Positions 31,914-41,189 of a DNA stretch of 64,000 bases are shown piece by piece. This DNA comes from Thiovibrio frasassiensis. GTDB lineage: Bacteria > Desulfobacterota > Desulfobulbia > Desulfobulbales > Desulfurivibrionaceae. Position numbers and translations under genes: made by a program. Position 1 is the stretch's first letter; each line of letters begins with the position of its first letter. The notes beneath the pieces were generated by a model. That model was not told where the DNA came from, made no database searches, and saw only the letters and a list, made by a program, of their open reading frames with translations. The stretch covers positions 1,951,530-2,015,529 of the forward strand of contig NZ_JAPHEH010000001.1 of NCBI RefSeq assembly GCF_029607905.1, read 5' to 3'.

Positions 31914-33866
31914 ATGCAATCAGGCCCGCAACAAGGCAGATATAACAAGGCGGTCATGGCTTTCATGGCCGTCTTGTTTTTTTTTATGGCCTTGGGTGAT
32001 TTCATCATTGCCCACCACCAGCGGGATTTTTTGTATTCTCGGGCGGAAAATCAGGCCCGTCGCGATCTGCAGTTGATGGCGGCCAATTTCATTGAGCCTC
32101 TGATCAAGTATGATTACGAATCGATAACCCGATTCATCCTGCGTTGGGGCGAAGAACATCCGGAGGTTGTTCGCCTGGCTGCGGTGGGTCCCGCAGGGCG
32201 AGATTTGATCACCTTCAGCCGCCCGAAAGAAGAGGGGAAGTTTTTTCTGGTAGAGGAGAAGGTCCGTTTTCAGGGCAAAGGACTCTTAATCCTCCAGATG
32301 GTCTCTTCTTCCACCGAGGTGGATGGGCTTCTGCGCAAGCTGCATTGGCAGTTGGGGCTTGCCTCGTTTCTCATGACGGCCATAGCGGGAATCGTCCTGT
32401 GGTTAACCCTGAGGCGTATCGCCCTCGCCCCTCTGGAAATGGAAATCGGCCTGCGTTTGGAGACGGAGCAGAAGCTGGCCTCGGCGCACCAACAGCTTGA
32501 GGAGCGGGTCCGAGAGCGGACCGTCGATTTAGAAGGAGCCAATCTTCTCTTGCAGAAAGAGATTGCGGTGCGTCATGCCGCGGAAGAGCAGTTTGCCAGA
32601 TTGCATCGGGAGTATGAGCTGATCTTGAAATCCGCCGGCGAGGGGATCTATGGCTTGGACACCCAGGGACGACTTACCTTTATCAACTTGGCTGGCTTGC
32701 AGATCCTTGGTTTCGAGGAAGTGGAATTGATCGGCAGACATCTCCATGATTTTCACCATCACGTGCGTTGGGATGGTGACCCCTATGGCCGTGAAGATTG
32801 TCCGGTGTGTGCTGCCTATGGTGAGGGAAGGAAAAACCGGGGAGGAGAAAGCTACTTCGGCAGAAAAGACGGTACTGTCTTTCCGGTGGAGTTTGTCTGT
32901 ACCCCCCTGGTGGAAGGGGAGAAGGTTCTGGGTACGGTGGTGGTCTTTGAAGACATCACCGTGCGCAAGCAGGCCGAACATGATCTGCTTGCCCTGACCG
33001 ATACCCTGGAGCGGCGGGTCATGGAGCGTACCGCCCGCATGGACGCCGCCAATCTTGAATTGCGGGAAACTCTGGGGCAGTTGGAACAGACCCAGGCCCA
33101 ACTCGTGCAATCGGGAAAGATGGCGGCCCTGGGTGATCTGGTGGCAGGCGTTGCCCATGAAATCAACACCCCGGTGGGCGTGGGCGTAACAGCGGCCTCG
33201 CACCTGGAAAACAAAACCCGTGAGATTGTGGCGCTCTATGCGGAAGGGCGTATGAGCCGCAGCGATCTTGATCGGTATCTTGCCCTCTGTCAGGAAGCGG
33301 CGAATCTTATTTTCTCCAATCTCAACCGGGCAGCGGAGCTTATCCGCAGCTTCAAACAGGTGGCGGTGGATCAATCCGGGGAAGGGCGCAGGCCTTTTCG
33401 GGTTAAGGAGTACCTGGCCGAGGTCTGCCTGAGCCTCAGGCCGGTTTTAAAGAATACCGGCCATCGCCTGGAGATCTCCTGTCCCGAGGATTTGGAGTTG
33501 AACAGCTACCCCGGTGCCTTTTCCCAGATCGTTACCAACTTCATCACCAACTCGTTGACCCATGCCTATGATGAGGATCAGGCCGGCTTTCTGCATGTGG
33601 AGATCGGGCTGGAGGGAGGCAATGTCCGGTTTGCATACAGCGACGACGGAAAGGGTATGACCGCCGATCTGGTCAGCCATGCCTTTGATCCCTTTTTTAC
33701 GACAAATAGGGAAAAAGGGGGGAGCGGTTTAGGGCTGCATATCGTATATAATCTTGTAACCCAGAAATTACTGGGGACAATTATCTGCGAAAGCATGCCA
33801 GGAAAGGGGACATCCTTTGTCCTGTTTTTCCCGGCTGTCATACCTGGGGGGGTATCGCATGGTTGA
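31914..33866 (+). CDS. Membrane histidine kinase with PAS domain
   Basis: 650 residues. A membrane segment at about 13-32 and another at about 148-168 bracket a periplasmic sensor of about 115 residues. A coiled coil follows, then a PAS domain (about 235-355) with a CPVCAAY insert, and a second coiled coil. The phospho-His lies in AGVAHEINTPVG near 415, and the HATPase domain carries DDGKGM and GSGLGLHI. The H-box type (HEINTP) is that of the HisKA-like group in Desulfobacterota. Its end overlaps the next gene by eight bases (ATGGTTGA), so the pair is a coupled two-component system. Confidence 0.9.
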   Translation: MQSGPQQGRYNKAVMAFMAVLFFFMALGDFIIAHHQRDFLYSRAENQARRDLQLMAANFIEPLIKYDYESITRFILRWGEEHPEVVRLAAVGPAGRDLITFSRPKEEGKFFLVEEKVRFQGKGLLILQMVSSSTEVDGLLRKLHWQLGLASFLMTAIAGIVLWLTLRRIALAPLEMEIGLRLETEQKLASAHQQLEERVRERTVDLEGANLLLQKEIAVRHAAEEQFARLHREYELILKSAGEGIYGLDTQGRLTFINLAGLQILGFEEVELIGRHLHDFHHHVRWDGDPYGREDCPVCAAYGEGRKNRGGESYFGRKDGTVFPVEFVCTPLVEGEKVLGTVVVFEDITVRKQAEHDLLALTDTLERRVMERTARMDAANLELRETLGQLEQTQAQLVQSGKMAALGDLVAGVAHEINTPVGVGVTAASHLENKTREIVALYAEGRMSRSDLDRYLALCQEAANLIFSNLNRAAELIRSFKQVAVDQSGEGRRPFRVKEYLAEVCLSLRPVLKNTGHRLEISCPEDLELNSYPGAFSQIVTNFITNSLTHAYDEDQAGFLHVEIGLEGGNVRFAYSDDGKGMTADLVSHAFDPFFTTNREKGGSGLGLHIVYNLVTQKLLGTIICESMPGKGTSFVLFFPAVIPGGVSHG

Positions 33867-35415
33867 ATCACCTGAGGCGGTTTTTTTTGCCGATGAACCG
33901 GAGGGGAGTGTGTCACCCCGACAACAGGCTGTGGGTAAAGGTGCCTGGAAGGTGCTGGTGGTTGACGACGAAGAAGAGGTGCATGCCGTCACCAAGCTGG
34001 TTCTCGCGGATTTTTCTTATGAGAATAAAGGGCTGCTTTTTCTCCATGCCTATTCCGGCAAGGAGGCCAGGGCTCTTATTGCCGAGCATCCCGATACCGC
34101 CATTATTTTTCTCGACGTGGTCATGGAGAAAAACGATGCCGGGCTTGAAGTGGTTCGCCATATCCGGGAGGAGCTGAAAAATTCCTTTGTCCGGATCATT
34201 CTGCGCACCGGCCAGCCTGGCCAGGCGCCTGCGGAAAAAGTAATCATCGAGTATGACATCAATGATTACAAGGAAAAGACCGAACTCACCGCCCAGAAAC
34301 TTTTCACCACCATGGTTGCTTCCCTTCGTTCCTATCGGGACATCCTCACCATCGATGCCAACCGAAAGGGACTGGAGAAGATTATCGATGCGGCCACCTA
34401 TATCTGCCGCCTCCGCTCGATCAAAAATCTGGCCAGCGGAGTCTTGACCCAGCTGGTTTCCATCCTGCATCTCAGCGAAAATGCCCTCTATTGTCAGACC
34501 TCGGGGATCGCGGTGGCTAATTTACAGGGTAATTTTAAGATGCTGGCCGCCACCGGGGCTTATGAGCCGTATATCGATGCCGAGACCAAGGGGGACTTGC
34601 CTGACAATGTTCTTGATTGTGTCCAGCAGGTGACGACGCTCAAGAAATCTATTTGTCTGGATAATCGGTATATCGGTTATTTTTGCAGTGAGCGTGGAGA
34701 AGAAACGGTTATTTATCTTGAGGGATGGCGGGACCTCAGCGTCCTTGACCGGCGGATGATCGAGGTTTTTTGCAGCAACGTGCAGGTGGCCTATGAAAAT
34801 GTGCTCCTGAATCAGGAGATAGAAGGAACCCAGAAGGAGATCATCTATACTCTGGGCCAGCTTGCCGAGATGCGGTCCCTTGAAACCGGCAATCATGTCC
34901 ATCGGGTGGCCGAATACAGTCGGTTGCTTGCGGAGAAACATGGCTTAAGCCAGCGGGAGGTGGAGGTGATCCGTCTGGCTTCTTCCATGCATGATGTGGG
35001 CAAGGTCGCCATCCCGGATGCCATCCTCAATAAAACCGGGCCGTTGAGCCCCGCTGAGTTTGAGGTCATGAAGACCCATACCATCCGGGCTCAGGAGATG
35101 CTGGGCCTTTCCGATCGGGAGATTGTCAAGGCCGCCATTGTCATTGCCATGCAGCACCACGAAAAGTTTGACGGCAGCGGCTACCCCAAAGGGTTGAAGG
35201 GGGAGGAGATCCACATCAGTGCGAGAATCACGGCCATAGCCGATGTGTTTGATGCCTTGGGTAGTGACCGTTCGTATCGCCAGGCCTGGGAGATGGAGGC
35301 CATCCTCGATCTTATCCGGACGGAACGGGGCGCGCATTTCGACCCGGTTCTGGTGGATCTCTTTTTTGAAAATATCGAGGCGATCCTGGCCATCAAAATC
35401 ACCCTGGCCGAGTAG
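33859..35415 (+). CDS. Response regulator with DUF3369 and HD-GYP c-di-GMP phosphodiesterase
   Basis: 518 residues from ATG 33859, overlapping the kinase gene by eight bases. REC domain at about 30-155 with the phospho-acceptor Asp near 86 (FLDVVME). DUF3369, a GAF-like input domain, spans about 165-310. The HD-GYP domain (about 325-515) has SSMHDVGKVAIPD near 377 and HHEKFDGSGYP near 433, all key residues present. It should degrade c-di-GMP when phosphorylated by the adjacent kinase. It opposes the two cyclases at the left end of the window. Its stop is three bases from the stop of the convergent ParB-like gene. Confidence 0.92.
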   Translation: MVESPEAVFFADEPEGSVSPRQQAVGKGAWKVLVVDDEEEVHAVTKLVLADFSYENKGLLFLHAYSGKEARALIAEHPDTAIIFLDVVMEKNDAGLEVVRHIREELKNSFVRIILRTGQPGQAPAEKVIIEYDINDYKEKTELTAQKLFTTMVASLRSYRDILTIDANRKGLEKIIDAATYICRLRSIKNLASGVLTQLVSILHLSENALYCQTSGIAVANLQGNFKMLAATGAYEPYIDAETKGDLPDNVLDCVQQVTTLKKSICLDNRYIGYFCSERGEETVIYLEGWRDLSVLDRRMIEVFCSNVQVAYENVLLNQEIEGTQKEIIYTLGQLAEMRSLETGNHVHRVAEYSRLLAEKHGLSQREVEVIRLASSMHDVGKVAIPDAILNKTGPLSPAEFEVMKTHTIRAQEMLGLSDREIVKAAIVIAMQHHEKFDGSGYPKGLKGEEIHISARITAIADVFDALGSDRSYRQAWEMEAILDLIRTERGAHFDPVLVDLFFENIEAILAIKITLAE

Positions 35416-37165: not shown

Positions 37166-37915
37166 ATGCAGCAGGAACTGGCGATCTTGTATTCCGGAGG
37201 AACTGACTCCCTCGCCCTCTATGCCTTGGCCAGCGCCGGCCATCATCCCGGCCTGGTTCGGCCGGTGCGCATCCATCTGCTCCACATGCTCAACGGCATG
37301 GGCCGCTTTGTTGATTTTCCCAGGAACCGCTTTCTGGCTGCGAAAAAGATTCTCCTGGCCAATGCCGCCGAGCCCAGCAAAATACCGGAAGCGGAGATGG
37401 TGGAGTTGGACATGGGCCGACTCTTTCAAGGGTTGTGGTTGGACCGGTATGAAGAATACATGCCGCTCTATGGCGGGAAAAATCTCGTCTGCGTGGCCTG
37501 TAAACTCGCGATGCATGCCCGGGCCATCATTTATTGTCACGAGCATTTCGTCCCCCATTTCGTGGCCGGCTACACCAAAAAACAGGGGCATTACCCCGAG
37601 CAGACCCCGGTCTTCATGGAAAAGATCGCTGAGCTCTCCGCCCGGTTCGGGATCACCGCCACCTTCCCTGTGTACGAGGATTTTGACGACCAGATGATCA
37701 CCCGGCATGTGCTGGAGGATTTCGGCCTGCCCTCCACGGGCGGGGGGGAAAGAAAATGTCTGTTCTGTCAGACCCTGACCACGGCAACGGAGAAGGAGAT
37801 CGGTCAGTACCTTGATGCTATGCTGCCACGGGTTGGCGAATATATTGAACACCGGTTGGCCGGTCGGATTCGGCAGGCTGCGCTCTGTTTTCCTCCCGGG
37901 AATCAAAGGGTGTAG
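37166..37915 (+). CDS. PP-loop ATPase of the adenine nucleotide alpha hydrolase superfamily
   Basis: 249 residues. PP-loop LYSGGTDSLALY near residue 8 places it with the QueC / thiouridine-type enzymes that adenylate a substrate carbonyl. Cys residues at CVACK (near 113) and ERKCLFCQT (near 197) could bind a metal or a sulfur. It is shorter than MnmA and does not show the QueC C-terminal four-Cys zinc cluster. Its substrate is unknown. The coupling to a RibD-C-like reductase hints at a pterin, deazaflavin or deazapurine route. Confidence 0.72.
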   Translation: MQQELAILYSGGTDSLALYALASAGHHPGLVRPVRIHLLHMLNGMGRFVDFPRNRFLAAKKILLANAAEPSKIPEAEMVELDMGRLFQGLWLDRYEEYMPLYGGKNLVCVACKLAMHARAIIYCHEHFVPHFVAGYTKKQGHYPEQTPVFMEKIAELSARFGITATFPVYEDFDDQMITRHVLEDFGLPSTGGGERKCLFCQTLTTATEKEIGQYLDAMLPRVGEYIEHRLAGRIRQAALCFPPGNQRV

Positions 37916-37930
37916 GATTGCGGCTGTAAC

Positions 37931-37952
37931 GGGCGCAAGATATTTTGCGCCC
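37931..37952 (+). terminator. Hairpin downstream of the PP-loop gene
   Basis: Perfect 8-bp stem GGGCGCAA / TTGCGCCC with a six-base loop. A T-rich tract follows about ten bases later, so it is a probable but not ideal terminator. Confidence 0.5.
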
Positions 37953-38113
37953 TTGCGGTGTTTCTTCTTGTTTTTTTGTTGTTATTTTAATATGTCACTC
38001 TTCTTTTGCTCCTTTGTCGTCAAAATTAATTGCCCCCCTTTTCTTCGGGAATCTCTCCGCAATATTTGTTTTGTGTCGTGAAATCATCCCCTTGTCTGTT
38101 TCTTCCTACACTG

Positions 38114-38129
38114 GCACTTAATTTGCTTT
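38114..38129 (+). promoter_or_regulatory. Sigma-54 promoter for the octaheme cytochrome gene
   Basis: TGGCAC (38114-38119), five bases, then TTGCT (38125-38129) is an exact match to the -24/-12 consensus TGGCAC-N5-TTGCW. The gene starts about 79 bases downstream. The 292-base gap upstream of the gene is otherwise T-rich and holds no other gene. Confidence 0.75.
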
Positions 38130-38207
38130 GCCTACCCTTGAGAACAGCTGTGTGCTGTTGTTGGCTTTTTTGTCTTCGTTCTGAGGTCGGAAAAGGAGGG
38201 AAGTGTG

Positions 38208-39680
38208 ATGGCTCATTTTTTTAAGGAGAAGAGGGGCGCTATGAAAAAATACGGTGTGTTTTCTGCATTAGTGGTTGTTTCTGCTATTGCCGCGGGAGGG
38301 TCGGCTTATGGTGGGGAGGCGCATAAGGGTATTACCGGTCCTTTTGCCACGCCCATGGATGTTACCAAGAAATGTCTGGAGTGCCATGCGGATGCGGCAA
38401 CGGACATCATGAAGACCAGCCATTGGACTTGGTCTACTGAGCAGGATATCGAGGGCAAGGGCAAGGTGATGCTCGGCAAGAAAAATGCCGTCAATAATTT
38501 CTGTATCTCCATTGATTCCAACTGGCCCCGTTGCACCAGCTGCCATATCAGCTACGGCTGGAAGGATGCCAAGTTTGATTTCAACGACAAAAACCGGGTC
38601 GATTGTCTGGTCTGCCATGACGGATCAGGAACCTATAAAAAGGCGCCTCCGGCAGCCGGGATGCCCTTTGGCTTTACCGGCAACCCCGAGTTGGATGCCA
38701 AACCGATTGACTTGGTGGCGGTAGCGCAAAGCGTGGGCAAGCCCGCTAAGAAAAACTGTGTCTCTTGCCATGGTTTCGGCGGCGGCGGCAACAACGTCAA
38801 ACACGGCGATATCGATTCCTCCATGGTTAACCCCACCAAGGCTATTGATGTGCACATGGGATCCGACAGCCTGAACTTTCAATGCACCGAATGCCATACC
38901 ACCCAGAAGCACAACATCAAGGGCAACGCCATGATCGTTACCCCTGGCGGCAAGAATCAGCTGGAGTGCACCCAGTGCCATGATGCCAAGCCCCACAAGA
39001 ATGCCAAGCTGAACACGCACACAGCCACCGTGGCCTGTCAGACCTGCCATATCCCCACCTTTGCTAAGGCCATGCCCACCAAGGTGGAGTGGGATTGGTC
39101 CACAGCCGGTCAGGACATTAAGCCGGAAGAGCAGGTGTTCGGTTCGGAGAAGCGGGACAGCTATGATAAAAAGAAAGGGAATTTCAAGTGGGCGAAAGAT
39201 GTGGTCCCTGCCTACAAATGGTACAATGGCAAGGCCACCGTCTATCTGCGCGGTGAGAAGATCGATCCTGCCAAGGTCACTGAGCTGAACGCGCCGGTGG
39301 GCAGCATCAAGGATAAAAGCGCCAAAATCTATCCCTTTAAGATCCATAGCGGCAAGCAGATCTATGACAAGGAGAACAAGTATTTCCTGACCCCCAAGGT
39401 CTGGCCGACCAACAAGGAAGACAAGGAAGCCTACTGGAAGAATTTTGATTGGGACAAGGCGGTCAAGGCAGGGAGCGAGGCCTCCGGTCTTGCATACAGC
39501 GGCAGCTTTGATTTTGCCCCCACGGTCATGTACTGGCGGATCAACCACATGGTTGCTCCGGCTGCCGAGGCCTTAAAGTGCAACGACTGCCACGCCAAGA
39601 ACGGCCGTCTTGACTGGAAGGCCCTCGGCTACAAGGGCGATCCCATGAAAACAAAAGGCGCTGCCAGGATGAAGAAGTAA
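38208..39680 (+). CDS. Octaheme c-type cytochrome, tetrathionate reductase (OTR) family
   Basis: 490 residues from ATG 38208 (AGGAGG eight bases upstream); ATG 38241 (479 residues, MKKYGVF start) is a second option. An export signal ends near SAYGG. Eight CXXCH motifs follow in order: CLECH, CTSCH, CLVCH, CVSCH, CTECH, CTQCH, CQTCH and CNDCH. The count, spacing and length fit the OTR family, which in Shewanella reduces tetrathionate and also nitrite or hydroxylamine in vitro. It should work in the periplasm. Single gene between a sigma-54 promoter and a terminator. No quinol partner lies beside it. Confidence 0.9.
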   Translation: MAHFFKEKRGAMKKYGVFSALVVVSAIAAGGSAYGGEAHKGITGPFATPMDVTKKCLECHADAATDIMKTSHWTWSTEQDIEGKGKVMLGKKNAVNNFCISIDSNWPRCTSCHISYGWKDAKFDFNDKNRVDCLVCHDGSGTYKKAPPAAGMPFGFTGNPELDAKPIDLVAVAQSVGKPAKKNCVSCHGFGGGGNNVKHGDIDSSMVNPTKAIDVHMGSDSLNFQCTECHTTQKHNIKGNAMIVTPGGKNQLECTQCHDAKPHKNAKLNTHTATVACQTCHIPTFAKAMPTKVEWDWSTAGQDIKPEEQVFGSEKRDSYDKKKGNFKWAKDVVPAYKWYNGKATVYLRGEKIDPAKVTELNAPVGSIKDKSAKIYPFKIHSGKQIYDKENKYFLTPKVWPTNKEDKEAYWKNFDWDKAVKAGSEASGLAYSGSFDFAPTVMYWRINHMVAPAAEALKCNDCHAKNGRLDWKALGYKGDPMKTKGAARMKK

Positions 39681-39706
39681 CCTTCCTGGTTTCCGCACCC
39701 TCCCTT

Positions 39707-39742
39707 AAGCCCCCTTCTTCTTTGAGGAAGGGGGCTTTTTTT
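39707..39742 (+). terminator. Rho-independent terminator after the octaheme cytochrome gene
   Basis: Stem AAGCCCCCTTC (39707-39717) pairs with GAAGGGGGCTT (39727-39737), nine-base loop, then T residues to 39742. Confidence 0.93.
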
Positions 39743-39924
39743 GTATAAACGCCAAGCAGCACAGCATTTGCGTGGTCTCGCGCTGCTTGCTGAGCTGTCT
39801 TCGGTGTGCATCTGCGGCGCTGCTGATTGGTTACGGTTGGGACTTTAGGGGATTCAGAAGTGGAAGAGAGGGTTGACTGGCGGTGGGTTTCTGCGTAAAG
39901 CACAAAAGACGCCGTGCTGGTTTA

Positions 39925-40299
39925 TCACAAGGTTTTCCGGTGGCGGCGCGTCAGAAAGATATATCCGTAGATAGTCAGGTTTATAAAGACAAGGCCTAAT
40001 CCAAGGAGATAACGCAATTCAATGGTGAGATTCTCGGGGTAGAGCAGCAGGGAAACGTAATGGTCGATAAACCCGCCCGCATACCCCGCCTCGCCGCCTT
40101 GTACCCGCAAAGCGTTTTCCAGCGGCGTAAGCGGACAGATCCAGTCAGCCCATTCGATCACAACTCCCCAGAGAACGGCGGCGAGATGCACCCAGAGAAG
40201 GGAGGGGCGGCGCAACACCAGCAAGCCTCCAAGAACAGTGAAAAGAGTGAAGGTGAGGTGCAGCAGGAGGATGGTGTCGGCCCCGATGCGGTAGATCAT
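39925..40299 (-). CDS. DUF2784-like small membrane protein
   Basis: 124 residues from ATG 40299, which overlaps the stop codon of the SPFH gene (ATGA). Three to four membrane segments; conserved look of DUF2784 with IEWADWICPLTPLENALR near the middle and a basic end (TRRHRKTL). Function unknown. Being coupled to an SPFH protein suggests a role in membrane organisation. Confidence 0.75.
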   Translation of the reverse strand: MIYRIGADTILLLHLTFTLFTVLGGLLVLRRPSLLWVHLAAVLWGVVIEWADWICPLTPLENALRVQGGEAGYAGGFIDHYVSLLLYPENLTIELRYLLGLGLVFINLTIYGYIFLTRRHRKTL

Positions 40300-41189
40300 T
40301 TTCCGATCTTGAGGCCAAACATCCCCTGGAGCGCTGCGGGCAGATCGGCAGGCAGGACCACGGTCTTGGCGTTTCCGGAAAGACCCAGTTCCTGCAAGGC
40401 GCCAATATATTTCTCGCCCAGCAGGTAGAGGGCCGGCAACTGCTCGTTGCCGATTCCTTGTTGCACCAAGGCCAGGGCATCCTTGGTGGCTTGCGCCAGA
40501 ACGATGCGGGCTTCGGCTTCCCTTCGCGATGCTTCCAGGCCGCCCTCCGCCTCCAGGATGGCTTTCTGCTTCTGGCCTTCCGCCGTCAGAATGGCAGCCT
40601 GTTTTTCGCCTTCGGCCTCGGTGATGGCCGCCCTGCGGATCCGTTCCGCCGCGGCCTGCCGTTCCATGGAGGCCTGCATGGTGCTCGATGGCTTGATGTC
40701 CTGAATCTCGATACTCTTGACCGTCAAGCCCCAATCCTCCAGATCATTGGCAATGGCCTGGATAAGTTTCACCTTGATCTGCTCCCGGGAGCTGAGGGCG
40801 TCATCCAGGTCCATCTGGCCGATGATGGCCCGCAGGTTGGTCATGATCAGATTCTTGGTGGCATGTTCGTAGAAATCGATGCCGAAAATGGCTTTGTGCG
40901 GGGTGTGGATGTTGATAAAGGCGATGGCGTTGGTGATGATCACCGCATTGTCCCGGGTGATGACCTCCTGGCTGGGGATATCCAGGGAGATATCCTTTCT
41001 GGTTACCTTGGCGGCAATGGTGTCGATATACGGGATGATCAGGTTCAGGCCCGGCGTCAGCGTCGTATGGTATTTGCCGAGCCGCATGATGACAAACTCA
41101 TACCCCTGCGGCACGATCTTGACCCCGTTGGCAATGGTCACAAACACAAGAACCAGAATGGCAACGACGATAATGAGTCCCACATCCAT
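40296..41189 (-). CDS. SPFH/Band 7 (stomatin/paraslipin, QmcA-like) protein
   Basis: 297 residues; GGAGGAATAGTAT precedes the ATG. One N-terminal membrane segment (about 3-20), then the SPFH domain (IVPQGYEFVIMRLGKYHTT start) and a long Ala/Glu-rich coiled coil (about 185-245). Such proteins form large ring cages at the inner membrane and partner with NfeD proteins or FtsH protease. The nfeD gene lies 32 bases upstream in the same run. Confidence 0.92.
   Translation of the reverse strand: MDVGLIIVVAILVLVFVTIANGVKIVPQGYEFVIMRLGKYHTTLTPGLNLIIPYIDTIAAKVTRKDISLDIPSQEVITRDNAVIITNAIAFINIHTPHKAIFGIDFYEHATKNLIMTNLRAIIGQMDLDDALSSREQIKVKLIQAIANDLEDWGLTVKSIEIQDIKPSSTMQASMERQAAAERIRRAAITEAEGEKQAAILTAEGQKQKAILEAEGGLEASRREAEARIVLAQATKDALALVQQGIGNEQLPALYLLGEKYIGALQELGLSGNAKTVVLPADLPAALQGMFGLKIGK

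Follow-up and report, generated by a model that had tools for sequence, protein, structure and literature searches.

The octaheme cytochrome gene at positions 38241 to 39680 of the window, i.e. of the whole 64,000-nucleotide stretch of Thiovibrio frasassiensis DNA that was analysed, is best explained, with a probability of roughly two in three, as the target of an NtrC-type activator that would act through two upstream dyads on a sigma-54 promoter, as part of a regulon that would include a rhodanese operon and answer a sulfur signal. In the mechanism that we propose, the activator would bind two CAA-N6-TTG enhancers, situated some 91 and 176 bp before the promoter, and remodel the sigma-54 polymerase at 38112-38127, leading to transcription of the OTR-family gene and production of a predicted periplasmic octaheme cytochrome. 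The likeliest activator is a response regulator encoded at G000:C1:1862696-1864117 (G000 being the genome of the window) together with a neighbouring histidine kinase, and the same two-component system would drive the adjacent operon for a single-receiver protein and a triple rhodanese. Such a regulon would pair OTR with an exported sulfurtransferase and would thus probably respond to a sulfur compound (tetrathionate, polysulfide or thiosulfate). Elsewhere in the order, in other families, a promoter of this type would depend on a divergently encoded PAS-domain activator acting at GTTAAC boxes. The features of the window that enter into this reading are the following.

37934..37949, + strand: distal enhancer candidate UAS1, CGCAAGATATTTTGCG; its CAA begins 176 bp upstream of the sigma-54 site.
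38019..38038, + strand: proximal enhancer candidate UAS2, GTCAAAATTAATTGCCCCCC; its CAA starts at -91.
38112..38127, + strand: sigma-54 promoter (-24/-12), TGGCACTTAATTTGCT; from pattern match and conservation.
38241..39680, + strand: OTR-family octaheme cytochrome c, 479 amino acids; from TIGR04315, Cytochrome_cB, 1sp3 and eight CxxCH motifs.
39707..39737, + strand: intrinsic terminator, 14-pair stem and T run; from a terminator scan.

By its sequence the gene product is a member of the TIGR04315 family, scoring 607.6 bits against a curated cut-off of 375, while tetrathionate, nitrite or hydroxylamine reduction is a putative activity here. It begins with a signal peptide, as judged by eye, and carries eight CxxCH heme sites (residues 45, 98, 122, 173, 215, 243, 266 and 447). 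The sole solved relative found by sequence was 1sp3 (582.9 bits, aligned over approximately the whole chain), which we take to be the octaheme tetrathionate reductase (OTR) of Shewanella oneidensis; it belongs to the same family, also has eight hemes, and shares a cysteine (chain position 64) and a lysine (chain position 153), with which C88 and K187 of the window protein align by hand count. Both residues are invariant across 12 aligned OTRs, and in 1sp3 they are presumably the active-site cysteine and the distal ligand of heme 2, respectively. Translation could start at GTG 38205 or at ATG 38241, the latter 113 bases past the sigma-54 site. The earlier note had placed the promoter about 79 bases before the gene, which fits the GTG; the ATG is the likelier start because an AAGGAGGAG-like ribosome site, the ATG codon itself and the signal peptide are all kept in relatives (by eye). 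The gene is monocistronic and has its own terminator, as the earlier note had stated, and the next likely gene (40296-41189) lies on the opposite strand. Inspection of the open reading frames of the window, with family profiles run on the upstream neighbours only, revealed no cytochrome or electron-transfer partner beside OTR, and the ohcB and ohcC partners that mark Ohc-type octaheme operons were absent from the OTR operon. The view that no partner is encoded beside the gene thus stands for the window; yet a divergent activator adjoins OTR in 9 of 32 relative loci, and the probable activator and a co-target lie elsewhere in G000. When the neighbours of OTR were listed in six relatives, same-strand downstream genes were seen in some of them.

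The promoter itself matches TGGCAC-N5-TTGCT exactly at 38112-38127; the earlier note had recognised it and set its start two bases late. Its -24 GG (38113-38114) and -12 GC (38125-38126) are ten bases apart, which is the spacing that the sigma-54 rule demands, and by the same rule transcription would start at about 38138. The window has no other exact TGGCAC-N5-TTGCW. Genome-wide there were 14 exact sites, versus three for the reversed pattern, and several of the 14 precede amtB, nifE, nrfH, flgI and fliK (genes read by eye), which are typical sigma-54 targets. G000 has one rpoN and 22 strong plus four weak matches to the activator AAA+ domain.

Conservation of the site was examined in relatives, as the earlier note had advised. 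Of 193 genomes searched for OTR, 42 had matches that exceeded the cut-off, and the best 30 matches were taken as loci; four loci of Sec type and one with short upstream DNA (L038) were set aside, leaving 25 of Cys type. Using a score with hand-set weights on the sigma-54 consensus, a strong sigma-54 site was found in 18 of these 25, compared with a mean of 0.085 and a maximum of two in 200 shuffles, and in 23 of 3000 random windows from the same loci, the OTR promoters included. Later additions of more distant Cys-type loci (L077-L080; L083 had no upstream DNA) yielded no strong site, so that the final count was 18 of 29 scorable Cys-type loci in the sample with a strong site and 11 without. 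None of the three scorable Sec-type loci had one, the fourth having 56 nucleotides upstream. In a wider scan of 80 named OTR loci, three of them (L141, L168, L175) with less than 300 nucleotides upstream, four reached the strong score, and their DNA was identical to that of genomes already counted (G135, G091, G059, G065); the other 76, a few of which also belong to the order, fell below it, the best being one Shewanella locus at 18.0. Sigma-54 control of OTR is therefore a trait of part of the order. Within it, the site recurs in the family of the window, and loci from four further families have it as well.

Further upstream, two CAA-N6-TTG dyads, which the earlier note had not mentioned, were found in all eight OTR promoters compared (seven loci of the genus and one of a sister genus), one at -166 to -178 and the other at -91 to -94. 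Each upstream stretch contained exactly two, against about 0.08 expected per 320 nucleotides by a rough rule, and a ninth promoter, that of a fragmented gene in G095, had them at -176 and -93. In G129, which represents a third genus of the family, three dyads precede OTR (-212, -195 and -117, measured from a weaker site scoring 18.0) and their spacing differs. Together, the conservation of the site and these enhancer-like dyads strongly support the claim that OTR is under sigma-54 with a dedicated activator. The exact form CGCAA-N6-TTGCG was tried as a genome-wide marker and discarded as too weak alone, since it occurred at four places in G000 versus two for its reversal; the longer form GYCAA-N6-TTGCNCCYY occurred at two places, the OTR promoter being one of them.

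The dyad and the promoter were then combined into a composite pattern (dyad, 60-90 nucleotides, -24/-12) and searched in 27 family genomes. The pattern matched 27 times, in 16 of the 27 genomes, and its reversal never; nine were OTR promoters, 13 preceded a rhodanese operon, two were nifE-like and three belonged to other genes. Of the exactly two composite sites in G000, one is that of OTR; the other belongs to an operon located near G000:C1:1862.5 kb, whose products are a single-receiver protein and a protein with three rhodanese stretches, the latter exported as judged by eye. Across the 13 genomes the rhodanese gene lies behind the composite site in every case and the receiver gene in 11. 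In the 13 rhodanese promoters the dyad sits at -91 to -93; this proximal dyad was the only one found there, and on inspection by eye it is the best-kept block upstream of the -24/-12. In G118 the -24/-12 before the rhodanese operon is weaker (17.5), and two dyads, at -169 and -94, reproduce the OTR geometry.

Just upstream of the rhodanese operon, on the same strand, lie a histidine kinase gene and the gene of the NtrC-type activator (G000:C1:1862696-1864117), and it is this protein, beside a shared composite site, that the search for an enhancer-binding protein suggested by the earlier note brought up. It consists of a receiver (REC), an AAA+ domain with a GAFTGA loop and HTH_8; the kinase scores well over the cut-off for HATPase_c and just under it for HisKA (25.4 versus the Pfam value of 26.9). 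The order kinase-activator-receiver-rhodanese is the same in G000, G059, G052 and G118, while in G064 the receiver gene was not found and the rhodanese gene lies about 3.7 kb from the activator with its composite site kept. An ortholog of the activator with at least 77% identity is present in all nine genomes with the OTR composite and in all 13 with the rhodanese composite. The activator accompanied by no sign of this OTR was seen in G064, G082, G102, G122, G132 and G138 (the last with a piece), all of the genus, and in G076. Because of the shared composite site, the adjacency of the activator and the co-occurrence of its orthologs, we infer that one two-component system drives both OTR and the rhodanese operon, which implies that this activator would recognise the dyads.

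Other explanations of the same DNA can be envisaged for each of its elements. A single exact match could be luck, and at least one such site indeed appeared in 8 of 100 shuffles of the window (mean 0.08 sites), so that OTR might in principle be read from a sigma-70 promoter. The conservation of the site upstream of orthologs, which extends from the window's own family to loci from four others, puts it beyond chance, however, and just one sigma-70-like match was found in 37800-39900, on the opposite strand and inside the OTR gene; the idea is hardly credible, and the sigma-54 promoter is almost certainly real. It is also improbable that the upstream gene terminates at UAS1 and that UAS2 alone matters. 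The UAS1 palindrome does follow soon after the stop of that gene, a weak 5-pair terminator-like stem occurs at 37947-37961, and in the rhodanese promoters of the genus the proximal dyad alone is seen; but no T run directly follows the palindrome, and the same type of dyad recurs at UAS2, at the G118 rhodanese promoter and, by eye, in G126 beside a different upstream sequence. Regarding the activator, a paralog at G000:C1:85095-86489 has 52% identity and a similar recognition helix, its HTH being close to that of the proposed protein, and it is present in most family genomes; within G000, the protein that best matches the divergent PAS activator of other families is an 805-amino-acid multi-PAS activator. 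If either of these served the real sigma-54 promoter, the link to rhodanese would say less about function. This is rather unlikely, considering that the dyad sits at the very promoter that adjoins the proposed activator and is the best-kept block there, that no sigma-54 site scoring at least 18 occurs in the 18 kb around the paralog, and that the HTH of the multi-PAS protein is different.

The remaining alternative concerns the signal and the substrate: nitrogen oxides would induce the cytochrome, which would act on nitrite/hydroxylamine or in nitrosative stress, two of the signals that the earlier note had listed being nitrite and hydroxylamine. According to the available excerpt of PMC4484225, the substrates that OTR reduces in Shewanella include nitrite and hydroxylamine besides tetrathionate; the enzyme is placed in a nitrite electron pathway there and receives electrons from a periplasmic cytochrome of that pathway. 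Two octahemes of Desulfurivibrio dismutans increase during growth with nitrate, of which one has a CXXCK heme and the other is not identified as OTR in the excerpted text (PMC12142623); the window OTR, unlike the former, lacks a CXXCK heme. Sigma-54 control of the nitrite response is moreover known in Desulfovibrio vulgaris (PMC4641369, excerpt). Against this stands the finding that in G000 nrfHA (NrfH read by eye, NrfA identified by PF02335) lies behind a sigma-54 site of its own, which is situated some 2 kb away from another activator; no CAA-N6-TTG dyad was found upstream of nrfH. In addition, the co-target of OTR is a triple rhodanese. The nitrogen reading is accordingly possible but unlikely, and a nitrite or hydroxylamine signal is less favoured than the third one in the earlier list, tetrathionate or another sulfur compound being plausible. 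As a regulator of OTR, the nitrite activator was rejected for want of the dyad before nrfH. We thus favour, on sequence grounds, a sulfur signal over nitrite for the induction of OTR, since OTR has a rhodanese as its co-target, sulfur transport is linked to a relative of the other activator (see below), and nrfHA is separate; the control sites that OTR shares with the sulfurtransferase suggest that it may work on sulfur rather than nitrogen compounds.

The NtrC-type arrangement does not extend through the whole order. In 9 of 32 extended loci, all of other families, OTR lies head-to-head with an orthologous PAS-AAA+-HTH activator; all nine have at least one GTTAAC upstream, and eight have a strong -24/-12 (L066 scoring only 14.5). 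Conversely, GTTAAC was absent from the 480 nucleotides upstream of all eight OTRs of the genus and sister genus. Given dyads in the window's genus and its sister genus versus a PAS activator with GTTAAC in other families, the OTR promoter appears to be served by two different activators across the order. On a maximum-likelihood tree of OTR with 27 rows (12 of them labelled GTTAAC from the boxes, nine of these shown with the neighbouring activator), the regulation labels cluster, requiring four changes versus a shuffled mean of 12.5; the GCAA-dyad rows need one change, at a fork of poor support (51/6), and the GTTAAC rows need three. The simplest reading would be that activator and enhancer were exchanged while sigma-54 control was kept. 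This looks like a natural example of a single type of promoter that is paired with two activator systems, which group on the tree of the gene itself. A close ortholog of the divergent activator was not found in G000 (best 44%, with a different HTH), and this protein was dismissed as the regulator there. The GTTAAC composite had 29 matches in 24 of 193 genomes across the order, versus five for the reversed control; seven were OTR, one was a usp-like/transporter operon of G129, two preceded an outer-membrane-like protein and 19 were various. Outside the order, besides L127, an activator-like gene lies near OTR on the same strand in L163, L183 and L199 among the 80 loci, and none of these three has a strong sigma-54 site before OTR.

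Several known systems invite comparison. The Shewanella OTR loci that we examined had no comparable sigma-54 site and no adjacent activator, the best score being 18.0 in one locus, at -62. In D. vulgaris, nrfHA is the target of DVU0621, whereas in G000 it is a separate unit near another activator and lacks the OTR dyads. DVU0621 itself, a nitrite-stress response regulator, is a two-component sigma-54 activator, as is proposed here (PMC4641369, excerpt). The same paper describes DVU3142-ohcBAC, an octaheme operon for which a sigma-54 promoter has been predicted, as have sites for its divergently encoded activator; the layout resembles that of the nine divergent-activator OTR loci; because it was already predicted there, an octaheme cytochrome under sigma-54 and a divergent activator is of a known kind (PMC4641369). 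OhcA, however, is encoded with the membrane partners OhcB and OhcC (PMC4641369), whereas the window OTR stands alone. The triple rhodanese also has a counterpart, since D. dismutans carries one that is exported and has three rhodanese domains like that of G000, Desulfurivibrio probably being of the same family; it belongs to the polysulfide reductase (psr) operon, and Psr is expressed more strongly in sulfur disproportionation (PMC12142623, excerpt). The G000 gene, in contrast, follows a receiver gene and the kinase-activator pair, and no psr gene was recognised by eye in a 20 kb list of open reading frames. Among the matches listed from the open-licence literature (titles and abstract openings), no earlier report of sigma-54 control of OTR was found. 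What is new, as far as these matches show, is the placing of OTR under sigma-54, with its two enhancer systems, and the site that it shares with a triple rhodanese. The cellular role of OTR is debated, and its regulation offers independent evidence on function: OTR and an exported sulfurtransferase share a sigma-54 control site beside a two-component system, while the nitrite reductase forms a unit of its own.

A broader and more speculative picture, which we consider doubtful and put forward tentatively, is that OTR in Desulfurivibrionaceae and relatives belongs to the sulfur side of metabolism, as an oxidoreductase of persulfides or polythionates that works with the exported Cys/Sec rhodanese under a sulfur-sensing two-component system. 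Its active-site cysteine (selenocysteine in a sister group of OTRs) might handle sulfane sulfur at the Lys-ligated heme, and activator and enhancers might have been exchanged within sulfur circuits with sigma-54 kept.

A number of additional observations were made in the course of the analysis. The gene 5' of OTR (37166-37912) encodes a product with an SGGTDS-like start, presumably that of a PP-loop ATPase, which had no Pfam or NCBIfam match at 1e-3; a similar gene also adjoins OTR in G129. Rfam returned no match at the gathering threshold in 37900-39800. At 31914-35415 of the window, a sensor kinase gene (PAS, HATPase) is followed by that of a receiver-DUF3369-HD protein, the two being a probable c-di-GMP phosphodiesterase pair. 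In L287 (G129:C44), an operon whose first gene is usp-like and which includes a YeeE-like sulfur transporter (PF04143) lies head-to-head with a relative of the PAS activator; it has GTTAAC boxes and the sigma-54 site TGGCACGGGCTTTGCT. In L292 (G063) and L293 (G007), a sigma-54 site and eight to nine GTTAAC-type boxes precede similar coiled-coil outer-membrane-like proteins, which the PAS activator might likewise control. Five cysteines of the PAS domain are invariant in all nine divergent activators (positions 65, 70, 73, 85 and 98 in L055) and possibly form a metal, Fe-S or thiol sensor; an AlphaFold model of the L127 PAS domain from a single sequence, in which clustering of the cysteines was sought, had a pLDDT of 44.5 and was discarded.

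Seven genomes had an OTR match over the cut-off with one TGA; four of the seven were looked at, and in all four (L010, L017, L018 and L037, the OTRs of G186, G043, G165 and G181) the in-frame TGA replaces exactly the codon of the active-site cysteine. A perfect 7-pair hairpin lies about 20 nucleotides past the TGA in three of the four. Folding energies there (-15 to -18) did not separate them from five Cys forms (-8 to -18), and selB, present in all 12 genomes tested, did not discriminate between Sec-type and Cys-type OTRs. A 2026 review lists the OTR family as a GenBank-annotated selenoprotein, with no site motif given (PMC13188914). In the triple rhodanese (L249:7179-8495 and orthologs), an in-frame TGA occurs in the motif YCGGxT-x-GMS in 11 of 14 genomes and a cysteine in the other three, which suggests that this TGA encodes selenocysteine.
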